A program made the translations under genes and the position numbers. A DNA stretch of 64,000 nucleotides from Methanoregulaceae archaeon (GTDB taxonomy: Archaea > Halobacteriota > Methanomicrobia > Methanomicrobiales > Methanospirillaceae): the NCBI GenBank assembly GCA_021371995.1, contig JAJFVA010000035.1:1-64000 (forward strand), given 5' to 3'. This document shows, piece after piece, positions 23,838 through 30,391 of the stretch. The number at the start of each line of letters is the position of its first letter. The stretch's first letter is position 1. The notes beneath the pieces are model-generated. The model worked only from the letters and a program-made list of their open reading frames with translations, ran no database searches and had not been told where the DNA came from.

Positions 23838-25311
23838 GTGCGATCCTCCGTGCGTCCCGGATGAGTGCATCGATTGCCTCTTTCAGTGCCAGGGCTCGCT
23901 GCTCAGTGTTCTGCTGGTCTGCTTCGAGCCTCTTTTTCCTGTCTTCAATGGCACTCCGGATCGAAAGGGTAGATGGACTCCCTTTCGCTTTCTTCTGCTC
24001 TATGCTCTTTTCCACATCAAGGGCATCCAGAATATCGATATCCTGAAGGGAATTCCCAGGAAGAGGAGATCCGGTAATGCTGGTTGCCGCCTCATCCAGA
24101 AATACCCGGTCAAGGCCGCCATTCTGGACCGCTCTCCCGACAATACTATGGGCAGTGCGGAACGGGAGACCACATTTCCGGACAAGCATATCGGCAAGAT
24201 CCGTTGCGGTTGAATAGCTTTTTCCCGCTTCCTCCTTCATCCGCTCTCGATTGAAGGATGCTGTCATGAGCATACCGTTTAAAAGGCTGGTGCTGTGCTT
24301 GGCATCCTGGACACCACGCAGGAGACTGGGGGTAAGTTCCTGGAGATCCCTGTTATAACTCATAGGGAGCCCTTTCATTGTAACAGCTGCAGAGGTATAC
24401 GCGCCTATGAGCGATGCCGCCTTCGCACGCATAATCTCAGCCGTATCCGGGTTTTTCTTCTGGGGCATGATCGAGCTTGTAGAGCAGAATGCATCATCAA
24501 GGGAAACAAAACCGGCAAAAGAGGAACTCCACAGGATGATCTCCTCACAAAGCCGGCTTATCCCCGTCATCATAATAGAGAGGTTGGAGAGAACCTCAAG
24601 TGCAAAATCCCGGGATGACACCGCATCCATCGTATTTCCGAGCACTCCATCAAATCCGAGTATCCCTGCAATATACTCCCTGTTAACCGGATATCCTGTC
24701 GATGCAAAGGCTGCCGCACCAAGAGGTGACAGGTTGACGCGGGAGAATGATTCGGATAGCCGTTCACAGTCACGGGAGAAAGCCTGCTCGTATGCGAGCA
24801 GGTGATGTGCGAGTGTTGTCGGCTGGGCATGCTGGAGATGGGTAAACCCGGGCATCACGGTCCCTGTGTGCTCTTCAGCAAGGCAGATTATTGTCTCCCG
24901 AAGCCTGAACAGTATGGAAAGCTGCCGGAGCACGTCCTCCCTGAGTCGAATACGGAGACAGGCAGCCACTTCATCATTCCGGGATTTCCCCATATGCATG
25001 CGGCCGCCAGTCTCTTCACCGACCGTTGTGATCAGGAACGCTTCAATTCCCGCATGAACATCCTCGTAGATGTCATCAAATGCTGATTCGGGGATCCCTT
25101 CATCATAGAGTCTGAGCAGTGCGGCGAGCAAAGGACGGACCGTCTCTTCATCGAGGATCCGCTGTTTTGAAAGCATCAGGACATGAGCAATATCCACAAG
25201 GACATCCGCATCAGCAATTTGCCTGTCCGCCACCATTGAAGAGAGAAAATGCATCATCTCCCCGGTCCGCTCCCCCGAGAGGCGCCCCCTCCGCACCACA
25301 TCATTGCGCAT
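23830..25311 (-). CDS. argH: Argininosuccinate lyase
   Basis: A 493-residue fumarase/aspartase superfamily enzyme catalysing the last step of arginine synthesis (argininosuccinate to arginine and fumarate). Visible motifs are EDVHAGIEAFL near residue 87, GGRMHMGKSRNDEVAA near 100, PGFTHLQHAQPTTLAHH near 150 and the signature SSIMPQKKNPD near 270. ATG 25311 starts at the conserved MRNDVVRRGRLSG. It is first in an overlapping operon with gatD and gatE, so arginine synthesis and Gln-tRNA formation are cotranscribed. Confidence 0.97.
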   Translation of the reverse strand: MRNDVVRRGRLSGERTGEMMHFLSSMVADRQIADADVLVDIAHVLMLSKQRILDEETVRPLLAALLRLYDEGIPESAFDDIYEDVHAGIEAFLITTVGEETGGRMHMGKSRNDEVAACLRIRLREDVLRQLSILFRLRETIICLAEEHTGTVMPGFTHLQHAQPTTLAHHLLAYEQAFSRDCERLSESFSRVNLSPLGAAAFASTGYPVNREYIAGILGFDGVLGNTMDAVSSRDFALEVLSNLSIMMTGISRLCEEIILWSSSFAGFVSLDDAFCSTSSIMPQKKNPDTAEIMRAKAASLIGAYTSAAVTMKGLPMSYNRDLQELTPSLLRGVQDAKHSTSLLNGMLMTASFNRERMKEEAGKSYSTATDLADMLVRKCGLPFRTAHSIVGRAVQNGGLDRVFLDEAATSITGSPLPGNSLQDIDILDALDVEKSIEQKKAKGSPSTLSIRSAIEDRKKRLEADQQNTEQRALALKEAIDALIRDARRIARE

Positions 25312-25352
25312 CCGAATATAACCTCTGTAACTTATAGGAACGCGAAAAAAGA

Positions 25353-25886
25353 TTAAAGCCACGCCTTGCGTGCAGCGAGTTCGATGGCACGTTGTACCGA
25401 TTCGCGCGGGATGATGGTGGCAACCGGAATGTGGACAAGCTGTTCGATAATGCTTGAGACAATCGGGGCACAGACAATTGCAGTTGCCCCTTCGCGCTCG
25501 GCACGGACAGCAGCCACGATTGCATCTTCCATGGTGTGAACAGGATACTCACGAACCCTTATTCGGTGCCCGTCCACTTCCGCATTCCTCTCCTGCACGG
25601 TATCAAGGACCGGTCGGGCAGCAATAAGCCCGATGAATTCCCCTTCGCCCGACCGCTCAAATTGTCGGAGAGCATGCACAACTGCACGAAGCGTTGAGAG
25701 GTTGGGAGACCGCCGCCCATGGAGGATCTTATAGAGGGAACTCTGGGCTATCCCGCTCTTTTCAGAGAGTTCCCGTACACTTATCCGCAGTTCATTCTTC
25801 ATTAACTGATTGAGCGCCCGCACAAATTCCTGGTCTGATATCAGTGATGCGCGCATAAGGCGGTCGACAGGATCGCTTAGTACCAT
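25353..25886 (-). CDS. COG1709-like HTH transcriptional regulator
   Basis: A 177-residue regulator. An N-terminal Cro/C1-type HTH lies at about residues 22-75 (ISVRELSEKSGIAQSSLYKILHGRRSPNL). A C-terminal ligand-binding-like domain follows, with a PrpR-type TAIVCAPIVSSIIEQL. The start at ATG 25886 drops 17 codons from the open frame and leaves a normal N-terminus. It is divergent from the ABC transporter operon, with the inverted repeat at 25960-26000 between them. Control of that operon and of itself is the natural inference. Confidence 0.85.
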   Translation of the reverse strand: MVLSDPVDRLMRASLISDQEFVRALNQLMKNELRISVRELSEKSGIAQSSLYKILHGRRSPNLSTLRAVVHALRQFERSGEGEFIGLIAARPVLDTVQERNAEVDGHRIRVREYPVHTMEDAIVAAVRAEREGATAIVCAPIVSSIIEQLVHIPVATIIPRESVQRAIELAARKAWL

Positions 25887-25930
25887 TGCCGTATACAGAA
25901 GGGATAATAAGTATCGATATATAACACTTT

Positions 25931-26000
25931 TGTCCAAATTGATCTGCCGGATGCGGATAATATGGACAGTAAATCATAATATTGATATTATTGTCCATAT
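25931..26000. promoter_or_regulatory. Inverted-repeat operator between regulator and ABC operon
   Basis: ATATGGACA (25960-25968) and TGTCCATAT (25992-26000) are a perfect 9-bp inverted repeat with a 23-bp spacer. A third half-site TGTCCAAAT lies at 25931-25939. It is placed midway between the divergent regulator and transporter genes, where a dimeric HTH protein would act. Confidence 0.6.
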
Positions 26001-26046
26001 ATTATAGAATATTAGTACAATAGTATAATTTTATTTACTCAATAGG

Positions 26047-26060
26047 AGAATTTATACTCC
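26047..26060 (+). promoter_or_regulatory. Promoter of the ABC transporter operon
   Basis: A TATA-like TTTATACT at 26051-26058 is centred about 27 bp before the ATG at 26081. No Shine-Dalgarno precedes the ATG. A leaderless transcript is therefore likely. Confidence 0.45.
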
Positions 26061-26080
26061 ATCAGCCAGACCTAGTTTTC

Positions 26081-27286
26081 ATGCAGATATCAAAAATGAT
26101 CGCTGTTGGTGCAGTGATGGCGATCGCCCTGCTAATCGCCGGGTGTATCACCCCCGCACCCCCTGCAGAGAACTCGGTCTCGGTTATCTACACCAAGGGG
26201 ACCGGCCCGATGCCCACCCTCCTTGCAACGGACCAGATTGACGGCTATATTGCCTGGCAGCCATTTGTCGAGGTCGCTCCACTCGCCGGGATAGGAAAAG
26301 TCCTCATCTATTCCGGTGACCTCCCCCCTGCCGGCCGGTGGCAGAACCATCCCTGTTGTGTCTTTACTGCCCGACAGGATGCCATCGACAATAACCCTGA
26401 CCTGACCAATGCCCTGACCGCCGCTCTTATCCTCTCGACCCGCTACATCGAAGATAACCCGAATGAGAGTGCCGAGATTGTCGCGGACTGGCTTGCCGGA
26501 AAAGGCAATTTCACGTATGGAGATATTTCTGTTTCATCGGTTGAAGTGCTCCAGCGGGCATTCCCGACTGTCAAATTTGTGAATGAACCCACAGACGACT
26601 GGAAGAATGATACTCTTGAATTTGTCTATGCCCAGCGGGAACTGGGCGTACTGACCGGATCCCTTGTAAATACCACGGATAAGGAGTCAATTGATCTTCT
26701 ATTTGACAGCAAGCCCTACGATTCAGCCGATTCCATGATCCAGTCTGGAGTCATCACCACTCCTGCAGTACAGAGCAAACCGATCGGGCTGGGATACCTG
26801 ATGTCCGACCACCATGCAGCCCTTTTTGTGGCGGTCAAGAACTGGAAATACTTCGAGGACACATATGGTATTGCTATCAAACCGCGCGACCTGACCGCAT
26901 CACGCCCTGACGTTGCCGACCTTATCGTGAACGGGCAGCCCGTTGCAGAGCTCAGGCTCGTCTCTGCAGATGCAGGACCGCAGCTGATGCAACTATCTTC
27001 CACAGATACGATCCAGTATGCGCTCGTGGGCAATCCCCCGGCTATCGCGGCAATCGATAAGGGGACCCCGGTAAAGATCATTATGGCTGTCAACGAAGAG
27101 GGATCAGGGATTGTCCTTGCAGAGGATGCCCCGGCCAATGACTGGGACAGCTTTGTTACATGGGCAAAAACCCGCTCAGCCAGCGGCCAGCCCCTGAAGA
27201 TAGCAGCACCGGGGAAGGGATCGATCCAGGATGTGCTCCTCCGGTATTCCCTTGAAGAGAGTGGTTTATCAGTTAAGGAAGGATAA
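26081..27286 (+). CDS. NitT/TauT-type ABC substrate-binding lipoprotein, lobes permuted
   Basis: A 401-residue lipoprotein: signal with lipobox LIAGC (Cys22). The NMT1/SsuA fold is recognisable but in swapped order. Residues 32-225 match the half that is normally C-terminal: ATDQIDGYIAWQPF, GKVLIYSGD, NHPCCVF, and a helical segment ending in KESIDLLFDSKPYDSAD. Residues 233-401 match the normally N-terminal half: IGLGYLMSDHHAALFVA, YALVGNPPAIAAIDKGTPVK and GKGSIQDVLLRYSLEE. The ligand (sulfonate, nitrate or another anion) cannot be decided. It is the first gene of a binding protein-permease-ATPase operon. Confidence 0.9.
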   Translation: MQISKMIAVGAVMAIALLIAGCITPAPPAENSVSVIYTKGTGPMPTLLATDQIDGYIAWQPFVEVAPLAGIGKVLIYSGDLPPAGRWQNHPCCVFTARQDAIDNNPDLTNALTAALILSTRYIEDNPNESAEIVADWLAGKGNFTYGDISVSSVEVLQRAFPTVKFVNEPTDDWKNDTLEFVYAQRELGVLTGSLVNTTDKESIDLLFDSKPYDSADSMIQSGVITTPAVQSKPIGLGYLMSDHHAALFVAVKNWKYFEDTYGIAIKPRDLTASRPDVADLIVNGQPVAELRLVSADAGPQLMQLSSTDTIQYALVGNPPAIAAIDKGTPVKIIMAVNEEGSGIVLAEDAPANDWDSFVTWAKTRSASGQPLKIAAPGKGSIQDVLLRYSLEESGLSVKEG

Positions 27287-27298
27287 TCTATCAGGATA

Positions 27299-28066
27299 AT
27301 GAGGAGCCCCCTTACCCTCCTCCTCCCTGTCCTTCTTATTGTGGGATGGGAGGTTGCGGCTTATTTCATTGATAATCCGTTCATTCTTCCATCCCTTACC
27401 ACAGTTATCCCGATCCTTCTCCACCCGTTTTCTTCTGAGTATACTCTGGGGAGCGGAAGTCTCGTTGACAATGCTGCAGCAAGCCTGTTCCGGGTTGCGT
27501 CCGGATTTCTTCTCGCGGCAGTAATTGCCATCCCTCTCGGTATCGGTATGGGGCGCTCGCATTTCCTTCATGATTTTCTTGACAGCACTATTGAACTCCT
27601 TCGGCCAATTCCCCCCCTTGCCTGGGTGCCACTCGCGCTTGCATGGTTCAAGATCGGGTTCGTTTCTATCGTGTTTATCATATTCATCGGTGCGTTTTTC
27701 CCAATTCTCCTGAATACGATTGATGGGGTAAAGTCTGTCAAGAAGACCTGGATCGAAGTGGCTGAGACCCTCGGCGCCCGGGAACGCGATGTGCTTTCAA
27801 AAGTAATCCTTCCCGGCTCTGCACCAACTGTCTGGACCGGGCTCCGGGTTGGGTTTGGTATTGCATGGATGTGTGTTGTTGCCGCGGAATGGCTCCCGGG
27901 AATATCCCGGGGACTCGGGTATCTTATCCTTTATGCTTACAACTTCGGGCAGACCAACCTTATTATCGCAGGGATGGTGGTAATCGGCGTGATTGGTATC
28001 CTGATTGACCAGATCTTCAGGGCGGGTGAGAAGAGATGGTTCTCATGGAGATCGCTGGAACGATGA
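27299..28066 (+). CDS. ABC transporter permease, SsuC/TauC type
   Basis: A 255-residue BPD-type permease with about six transmembrane helices. The cytoplasmic EAA loop is VAETLGARERDVLSKVILPG near residue 160, which contacts the ATPase. It belongs to the NitT/TauT importer class. It starts 12 bp after the binding-protein stop and ends 34 bp before the ATPase start, so the three genes form one operon. Confidence 0.93.
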   Translation: MRSPLTLLLPVLLIVGWEVAAYFIDNPFILPSLTTVIPILLHPFSSEYTLGSGSLVDNAAASLFRVASGFLLAAVIAIPLGIGMGRSHFLHDFLDSTIELLRPIPPLAWVPLALAWFKIGFVSIVFIIFIGAFFPILLNTIDGVKSVKKTWIEVAETLGARERDVLSKVILPGSAPTVWTGLRVGFGIAWMCVVAAEWLPGISRGLGYLILYAYNFGQTNLIIAGMVVIGVIGILIDQIFRAGEKRWFSWRSLER

Positions 28067-28100
28067 GTGTGATGCAGGTATTCAAAGGAGTGTCCCGGCT

Positions 28101-28889
28101 ATGACCCTGGAAATCCTGAACCTTTCAAAGGAATTTCCTGTACCCGGACAGCCCCCGATCCAGGCGCTGTCAGGGATCACACTCACTGTGGGGGACAAGG
28201 AATTTGTTTCGGTTCTCGGACCTTCGGGGTGCGGAAAGACAACGCTGCTCCGGATTGTTGCAGGGCTCGAAACTGCGACTTCAGGATCCATCACGCTGGA
28301 TGGGGAGAGCATCGATCGACGGAGTTCTCAGATGGCCATGATATTCCAGGAGTACTCGCTCTATCCCTGGAGAACGATTATCGATAACGTGACCTTCGGA
28401 CTTGAGATGCAGAATATCGAGGAGAGACCTGCAAGGGAAGTGGCATTGGAGTATCTCCACCTTGTGGGACTTGATGAATTTGCCAACCGGTACCCTTACG
28501 AACTTTCCGGAGGAATGCGCCAGAGAGTAGCCGTTGCACGAGCAATGGCAATCGAGCCCCGGATTCTGCTGATGGATGAGCCTTTCGGGGCACTGGACGC
28601 CCAGACCCGGAATATGCTTCAAAAAGAGCTTCTTGAGATTTGGGAAAAGACAAGGAAGACCGTGCTCTTTGTAACACACAGCGTCGATGAAGCAGTGTAT
28701 CTCTCGGACCGGATTGTCGTGCTTACCGCGAGACCAGGCCGAATCAGGAAGATTGTGGATTCCTCGCTTGAAAGGCCACGGAACCGGACAAGCCCGGAAT
28801 TTGCGCGGATACGCAGGTGTGTCCTTGATCTTATCAACGAGAGCGGGCAACCAAAGGAAGATTTAATAGTGCATCCCCCCTCTTTATAA
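28101..28889 (+). CDS. ABC transporter ATP-binding protein, SsuB/TauB type
   Basis: A 262-residue ATPase: Walker A GPSGCGKTT near residue 40, Q-loop FQEYSLYPW near 85, signature LSGGMRQR near 135, Walker B ILLMDEPFGALD near 155 and switch His in FVTHSVDEA near 190. ATG 28101 has AAAGGAG about 10 bp upstream. The frame is open to 28005, but that stretch lies within the permease gene. It energises uptake by the adjacent permease and binding protein. Confidence 0.95.
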   Translation: MTLEILNLSKEFPVPGQPPIQALSGITLTVGDKEFVSVLGPSGCGKTTLLRIVAGLETATSGSITLDGESIDRRSSQMAMIFQEYSLYPWRTIIDNVTFGLEMQNIEERPAREVALEYLHLVGLDEFANRYPYELSGGMRQRVAVARAMAIEPRILLMDEPFGALDAQTRNMLQKELLEIWEKTRKTVLFVTHSVDEAVYLSDRIVVLTARPGRIRKIVDSSLERPRNRTSPEFARIRRCVLDLINESGQPKEDLIVHPPSL

Positions 28890-28920
28890 AGAACCGATAG
28901 CGAAGAGGAGTGACTGACAG

Positions 28921-29475
28921 ATGGTTCGAAAACCAGCCAAAATGTACAGGAATCTGGCAAAGAAGGCTTATACGAGAAGAGAATACATGGGCGGTGTACC
29001 CGGAAGCAAGGTCGTCCAGTTTGATATGGGAAACCTCTCCCAGGAATTTCCCCTCGAATTGAATCTTATCGTTGTAGAGTCCTGCCAGATACGTCATAGT
29101 GCGCTCGAAGCAGCACGTATCAGCATCAACCGAAAACTGCTCAAGGATGTTGGGAGGATGAATTTCCATCTCAAACTCCGGGTGTTCCCGCACCATGTCC
29201 TTCGCGAGAACAAGCAGGCAACAGGAGCAGGTGCAGACCGTGTCTCTGAGGGGATGAGACTTGCCTTTGGAAAGGCCGTGGGGACCGCAGCCCGGGTGAT
29301 GAAAGACCAGGTGGTTTTCACAACGTATACGAGCCCGCAGTACCTTGACAAGGCGAAAGTTGCCATGAAAGCGGGCAGCCACAAACTCCCTTCTCCTGCG
29401 TATTTCACCGTTGTTGAACGGAGCGGGCCAGTGCCTGCGGAATCCCCCGCACCGGCTGTCAACGAATCAGAATAA
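28921..29475 (+). CDS. rpl10e: 50S ribosomal protein L10e
   Basis: A 184-residue archaeal L10e (uL16 family). [11 protein letters not shown] at the start, [29 protein letters not shown] and [16 protein letters not shown] match family blocks. It lies near the tRNA binding region of the large subunit. Its TATA box (TTTATAAA at 28883-28890) overlaps the end of the ABC ATPase gene, and GAGGAG lies 12 bp before the ATG. It is not in a ribosomal cluster here. Confidence 0.97.
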
Positions 29476-29554
29476 AAATTCTTATCTCCCTCCTTCTTTT
29501 TCGCCCTGATTCCGGACAGAAACGATTATAGATTTTCTTCGCCGAGTACTGGTG

Positions 29555-30391
29555 ATGGTGCTTCCAGAAGATGACTCACTGTACCGGGCCGTGGCAGACG
29601 CTACATGCCGGGCATTCCGGCAGGCAGAGACGATCCTCCCCCCTGATATAGTGGCGGCACTTCGCACTGCCGCCGGCAGAGAGTCATCTGCTGTCGCCCG
29701 ACATGAATTATCAAATATTCTCGAAAATATCGCTCTTGCAGAAAAGCTTGCCCTGCCTATCTGCCAGGATACCGGAGTGCCGGTGATTTTTCTCACCGTG
29801 CCACCGCATGTCCCCTACTCCCACAGGCTCCTCCTTGCTGCCAGCGAGGGAGTACGGAGAGCAACCCGGGATGTCCCGCTCCGGCCAAACGTCGTTTCGC
29901 CTCTCGAAAGAAAGAATTACGGCGATAACACCGGGCCGGGGATGCCGTCATTCCATGTATCCCCGGGTGACATCCTGACCGTTACCGTTCTCCCGAAGGG
30001 TGCAGGGGCAGAAAACATGTCCCGGCTGGCCATGCTTCTCCCGACTGAAAAGGACCAAATTCCCAAGTTTGTCGCGGAGACTATGCTGATTGCAGGAGGC
30101 AGGCCGTGTCCCCCTGTTGTGCTCGGGGTTGGAATAGGCGGTACATTTGACAGCTGTGCCGCACTGGCCAAGGAAGCCCTGCTTCTCCCTATCGATACCA
30201 TGGATCCCTTTGAACAGGAGCTCTGTGATGCTGTCAATGCCCTAGGGATTGGACCGATGGGATTAGGGGGAGAGACAACGGCACTTGCCGTGAAGGTCAG
30301 GACTGCTGCCTGCCATACTGCATCGCTGCCCGTTGCAGTGAATGTCCAGTGCTGGGCTGCCCGCAGGTCAACCATCGAGGTGAAATGGTGA
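29555..30391 (+). CDS. fumA: Fumarate hydratase, alpha subunit (class I)
   Basis: A 278-residue N-terminal part of class I iron-sulfur fumarase (TIGR00722-like). It contains CQDTGVPVIFL near residue 70, PGDILTVTVLPKGAGAENMS near 130, GVGIGGTFDSCAALAKEALL near 190 and GPMGLGGETTALAVKV near 230. Cys residues bind the [4Fe-4S] cluster. It interconverts malate and fumarate. A GTG at 29552 is an alternative start one codon upstream. A TATA-like ATTATAGA at 29525-29532 would give an almost leaderless mRNA. It heads the fum-kor-suc operon. Confidence 0.93.
   Translation: MVLPEDDSLYRAVADATCRAFRQAETILPPDIVAALRTAAGRESSAVARHELSNILENIALAEKLALPICQDTGVPVIFLTVPPHVPYSHRLLLAASEGVRRATRDVPLRPNVVSPLERKNYGDNTGPGMPSFHVSPGDILTVTVLPKGAGAENMSRLAMLLPTEKDQIPKFVAETMLIAGGRPCPPVVLGVGIGGTFDSCAALAKEALLLPIDTMDPFEQELCDAVNALGIGPMGLGGETTALAVKVRTAACHTASLPVAVNVQCWAARRSTIEVKW

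Follow-up and report, generated by a model that had tools for sequence, protein, structure and literature searches.

Evidence for a natural circular permutation in an SsuA/TauA/NMT1-type binding protein of Methanomicrobiales

Why do the two halves of an archaeal ABC importer binding protein follow each other in reversed order? The ORF that raises this question occupies positions 26081-27286 of the window, by which we mean the whole stretch of 64,000 nucleotides analysed here from a Methanoregulaceae archaeon (assembly GCA_021371995.1, contig JAJFVA010000035.1). It encodes 401 amino acids with a signal peptide and a lipobox (LIAGC) at residues 18-22, in which Gly21 and Cys22 are invariant in an alignment of 23 rows. 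The gene for this substrate-binding protein (SBP) is followed by a permease gene, with 12 bp between stop codon and permease start (27287-27298), and then by an ATPase gene, while an HTH regulator is encoded divergently upstream (Table 1); a scan of 25300-29600 against Rfam gave no match. The first-pass annotation had described the ORF, the signal peptide, the lipobox and the 12 bp gap, all of which can be read from the sequence, and had proposed that the protein is a natural circular permutation of an NMT1/SsuA-type SBP. We are strongly inclined to accept this proposal on the basis of the reversed profile order, the doubling of the score upon rotation, the alignment through the joint, a confident structural model, contrasting Foldseek results and conservation across the order. 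As judged from sequence and model, the protein is a predicted lipid-anchored SBP of the SsuA/TauA/NMT1 family with a circularly permuted chain.

The profile PF13379 (NMT1_2) matches the ORF twice, with a total of 106.8 bits against a curated cut-off of 24.7, and the order of the matched segments is the reverse of the canonical N- to C-terminal order. Profile positions 150-251 are matched in the upstream block at nucleotides 26153-26494 (residues 25-138, E 2.5e-16) and positions 36-152 in the downstream block at 26948-27280 (E 1.5e-11); at these E-values the reversed double match is therefore not due to chance. The junctions between the two halves had been placed correctly to within a few residues. 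The only other Pfam family listed for the ORF is PF09084, with no match to the OpuAC family, and the NCBIfam model SsuA_fam (TIGR01728) matches in two stretches with 67.3 bits, which is below its cut-off of 163.5. Using a profile of 329 positions built from 16 unpermuted relatives, we scored every rotation of the mature protein. The native order gave 79.7 bits with a best stretch covering one half only, whereas the rotated order gave about 164 bits and aligned with profile positions 18 to 310-312 straight through the joint, the top-scoring rotations starting at residues from about 187 to 219. When 247 genomes of the phylum were searched, the rotated query also aligned with unpermuted proteins without a break across the artificial joint, the best of these matches spanning residues 66-277 of 362 at 41 % identity (E 6e-29). 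A sequence search of the PDB with the native order returned matches to halves only (best E 0.007). Rotation thus restores a near full-length collinear match, as is characteristic of a circular permutation.

An AlphaFold2 model of the permuted protein, based on 23 family sequences, has a mean pLDDT of 90.6 and a pTM of 0.85, and the corresponding values for an unpermuted relative (L131) are 88.2 and 0.79. The predicted model has a two-lobe alpha/beta fold and, after rotation, its structural elements match those of the canonical model in order, apart from extra hairpins in the permuted protein. Foldseek, which aligns in sequence order, listed neither SsuA nor TauA for the permuted model and nothing better than E 3e-4, with query TM scores of at most 0.31 among the listed matches; the best-ranked bacterial SBP was OpuAC (E 8e-4, TM 0.31/0.44, rmsd 13.9). 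In contrast, the canonical control L131 retrieved TauA, SsuA and 3un6 at E-values of about 1e-20 to 1e-21 with target TM scores of up to 0.86.

It has been described that both termini of Xanthomonas citri SsuA lie in domain I and that its hinges are formed by residues 107-109 and 204-211 (PMC3839906). Residues 93-230 of L131 align with 63-200 of this protein, and the cut, at about residues 183-190 of L131, corresponds to about 153-160 of SsuA, which is midway through domain II provided that the residue numbers of the chain agree with that publication. The cut is located between the GSIQD helix and the following strand. Because it falls inside lobe II, each half contains parts of both lobes, and the blocks are sequence halves rather than lobes. 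The first-pass annotation had spoken of two lobes in swapped order and had suggested a structural comparison with SsuA/TauA; the exchange of the halves was borne out and the elements of the confident model agree after rotation, but the equation of blocks with lobes has to be given up. In the alignment, some twelve residues connect the old C-terminal part, with its LFD motif, to the old first strand. The lobe I hairpin is common to the aligned permuted proteins and absent from unpermuted relatives. The model has a short strand at both new termini (residues 32-37, nucleotides 26174-26191, and residues 397-400, nucleotides 27269-27280), where an unpermuted relative has one strand, and the second strand might possibly be a leftover of a duplication.

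Table 1. Coordinates of the permuted binding protein, its segments and the neighbouring genes in the window
Feature	Position	Strand	Evidence
Signal peptide of the permuted SBP with its lipobox (LIAGC, Cys22)	26081..26146	+	Sequence; invariance of G21/C22
Block A (residues 32-222), equivalent to the C-terminal half of a canonical SBP, with the later part of lobe II, the return into lobe I, the HPCC motif and the helical tail	26174..26746	+	PF13379 150-251; alignment with unpermuted relatives; AlphaFold2 elements in matching order
New linker from old C-terminus to old N-terminus, about residues 223-234	26747..26782	+	Alignment; block pLDDT 96-97 around residues 221-240
Block B (residues 235-401), equivalent to the N-terminal half of a canonical SBP and ending at the new C-terminus, with the first lobe I strands, the GNPP loop and the beginning of lobe II including the GSIQD helix	26783..27283	+	PF13379 36-152; rotation test
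Additional beta-hairpin within lobe I (about residues 270-296)	26888..26968	+	Alignment; AlphaFold2 strands 278-283 and 286-296
Cognate permease; lineage tracks the permuted binding protein	27299..28066	+	PF00528; trees
ATPase subunit; lineage does not track the permuted pair (start at a chosen in-frame ATG)	28101..28889	+	PF00005; trees
Divergent HTH regulator, common to permuted and canonical operons	25353..25937	-	PF01381; neighbourhoods

Two other explanations for the reversed order have to be weighed. A sequencing or assembly error could have fused two partial SBP genes, which the first-pass annotation had itself named as an outcome that would overturn its proposal; the draft genome consists of 43 contigs and in one relative (L150) the gene is indeed split over two frames. 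However, matches at 1e-40 were found in 115 of the 232 genomes of the class, a few of them contig-end fragments or partial but most full length, free of internal stops and in the same order. G033, G017 and G042 are examples of carriers assembled in a single contig, and homologues that are 50-85 % identical align over their whole length. The homologues found share the reversed order, for which the annotation had proposed a search, and an error of this kind was rejected on the basis of this conservation, its probability being negligible. Alternatively, half-proteins from different SBPs could have been fused, rather than one protein rotated. This would agree with the separate profile match of each half and with the unequal conservation of the halves seen in members such as L025 (46 % and 60 %), but the two halves together make up one complete SBP, whose core is neither lost nor repeated, and rotated sequences place the permuted proteins in one clade, so that we regard such a fusion as highly improbable. 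The reading as a circular permutation is retained in the following.

A scan of species genomes revealed 24 further full-length loci with the permuted order and one with block B only. Those permuted loci whose records give an order or family belong to the Methanomicrobiales, and in the phylum sample the sole carrier outside this order is G369, a fragmented metagenome-assembled genome (MAG). The permuted form was not found in bacteria in a pattern-based genome scan, which detects close relatives only, and none of the 44 records returned by a plasmid search for the same order covers 80 % of the query. There are two subfamilies, which are about 30-41 % identical and have the same cut point and the same lobe I hairpin: the first includes the window protein and is, among the loci examined, mostly found next to argH and the regulator, and the second is found elsewhere. 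All permuted operons fall on one side of a strongly supported branch in both the permease tree and the tree of rotated SBPs (support 100/97 and 100/99), and the permease tree joins them to unpermuted operons of family f14. The permutation therefore appears to have arisen once, and the trees support an ancestor akin to the SBP-permease pair that is now unpermuted in this family. Tandem duplication, fusion and trimming would be the likely route, and no extant tandem intermediate was found. In the course of it, a short linker would have connected the old C-terminus to the old N-terminus, both of which are in lobe I, and the chain would have acquired new ends midway through lobe II. The lipid anchor of the predicted structure would then hang from lobe II instead of lobe I; the fold would presumably close on its ligand as usual and deliver it to its own permease.

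In two congeners (G035 and G125) the same locus holds an unpermuted SBP, with gatD, argH and the regulator on one side and the genes for L10e and fumarase on the other. The argH/L10e locus thus carries the permuted pair in some lineages and the canonical pair in others, with the same regulator and flanks. At the locus of these congeners the permease is 38-39 % and the ATPase 62-63 % identical to that of the window. In the permease tree, a clade of the first subfamily with the permeases of the canonical locus is rejected (p-AU 1e-5); in the ATPase tree, so is the grouping found for the permeases (p-AU 0.01). The simplest reading is that the SBP and permease move as a pair while the ATPase stays; the resident ATPase has apparently been kept at the locus, and the permuted SBP and its permease would have moved together after the permutation. 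However, a clade of the first subfamily with the ATPases of the canonical locus is also weakly rejected (p-AU 0.04). We mention as a speculative and rather unlikely extension that the changed chain ends and lobe II anchor altered docking in such a way that the SBP serves its own permease lineage only, and that the locked pair repeatedly replaced the canonical pair of a coenzyme M importer, with regulator and ATPase staying in place.

With regard to known systems, the window protein agrees with SsuA/TauA/NMT1-like SBPs (PF13379; 2x26, 6ssy, 3un6) in profile, core elements and SBP-permease-ATPase operon, but differs in its reversed halves, in having its termini in lobe II and in the extra lobe I hairpin. 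TpMglB-2 of Treponema pallidum (Tp0684, 'Type Ic / Cluster Bc') is likewise a tethered ABC binding protein whose chain is naturally permuted in a circular manner; however it has a Type I sugar-binding fold, belongs to an unrelated sequence family, and its permutation reordered the strands of the N-lobe (PMC4990184). A published search reports circular permutation among glycine betaine-binding proteins including OpuAC of Bacillus subtilis (2b4l/2b4m), which is likewise a two-lobe protein (PMC2395249); OpuAC belongs to the betaine-binding family, though, and its structural similarity to the window protein is weak. Circular permutation is therefore known in other binding proteins but apparently undescribed in the SsuA/TauA/NMT1 family, as no description of a permuted member was found in the open literature searched. 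An SBP that is permuted and travels with its own permease is new here. Because unpermuted relatives exist, the origin appears to be single and both versions alternate at one locus, this family offers a natural experiment that shows how far an ABC binding protein depends on the position of its chain ends and of its tether. In addition, this importer can be overlooked or misannotated across the Methanomicrobiales when structure or profile searches are collinear.

The ligand and the history of the module are less certain than the permutation itself. Neither ComA nor ComDE was found in the window genome, which is 98.6 % complete, and neither MMP16 nor cysteate synthase was detected above cut-off, and because all of these are missing the host is a predicted coenzyme M auxotroph. 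The genes for cysteate synthase, ComDE and MMP16 lie side by side in 6 of 21 relatives, and a single contig missing from the draft could mimic such a loss, although two congeners (G023 and G035) lack them as well. Sulfopyruvate decarboxylase (ComDE) adjoins the SBP operon in three f10 genomes, a linkage that was seen in loci of family f10 only, and no correlation between the permuted form and the loss of coenzyme M genes was seen in the 21 relatives checked. In Methanosarcina acetivorans, an SsuA-type 'CoM-specific ABC transporter' has been reported to rise when cells are starved of coenzyme M (PMC12068725), and according to a review the coenzyme M transporter genes ssuABC occur in almost all methanogens (PMC10658910). 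The window importer would likely have the same function, and the passages of the two accounts on these transporters do not mention a permutation. From the predicted auxotrophy, the ComDE linkage and these published transporters, coenzyme M is the leading candidate, and we think it somewhat probable that this compound or a close sulfonate is bound. The permuted protein may instead import, for example, taurine or a different sulfonate, nitrate, bicarbonate or a precursor of thiamine. Among the named permease and ATPase models, those closest to the operon include SaoP/SaoA, TauC and NtrB, all under cut-off, and the structural relatives found by Foldseek for the canonical form include proteins that bind taurine, alkanesulfonate, nitrate, bicarbonate and thiamine-related compounds; set against the predicted auxotrophy of the host and the ComDE linkage in related operons, another ligand is a serious but less favoured possibility. 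The permutation thus probably concerns the importer of coenzyme M, a compound that predicted auxotrophs need for methane formation.

A number of minor observations were made at individual loci. The congeners G023 and G035 likewise lack all coenzyme M synthesis genes tested and are predicted auxotrophs. A lone ORF of 183 amino acids with block B only is present at L149:2763-3311 (G166), away from the contig ends and with no neighbouring permease match, and at L150:2966-4224 (G203) the permuted protein is divided between two overlapping ORFs by a frameshift or an assembly error. Two permuted binding-protein genes stand in tandem ahead of one permease and one ATPase gene at L113:1574-4170 (G122), and two also stand in tandem at G138:C65. 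At L135:219-6465 (G369), genes for ComA, a ComB-like protein and ComDE lie on one contig with a permuted SBP and its permease, and this pair is located upstream of a second permease, which is of canonical type and spread over two frames, and of an f10-type ATPase. On the evidence of this one MAG contig, the arrangement provisionally looks as if a replacement had been caught midway.
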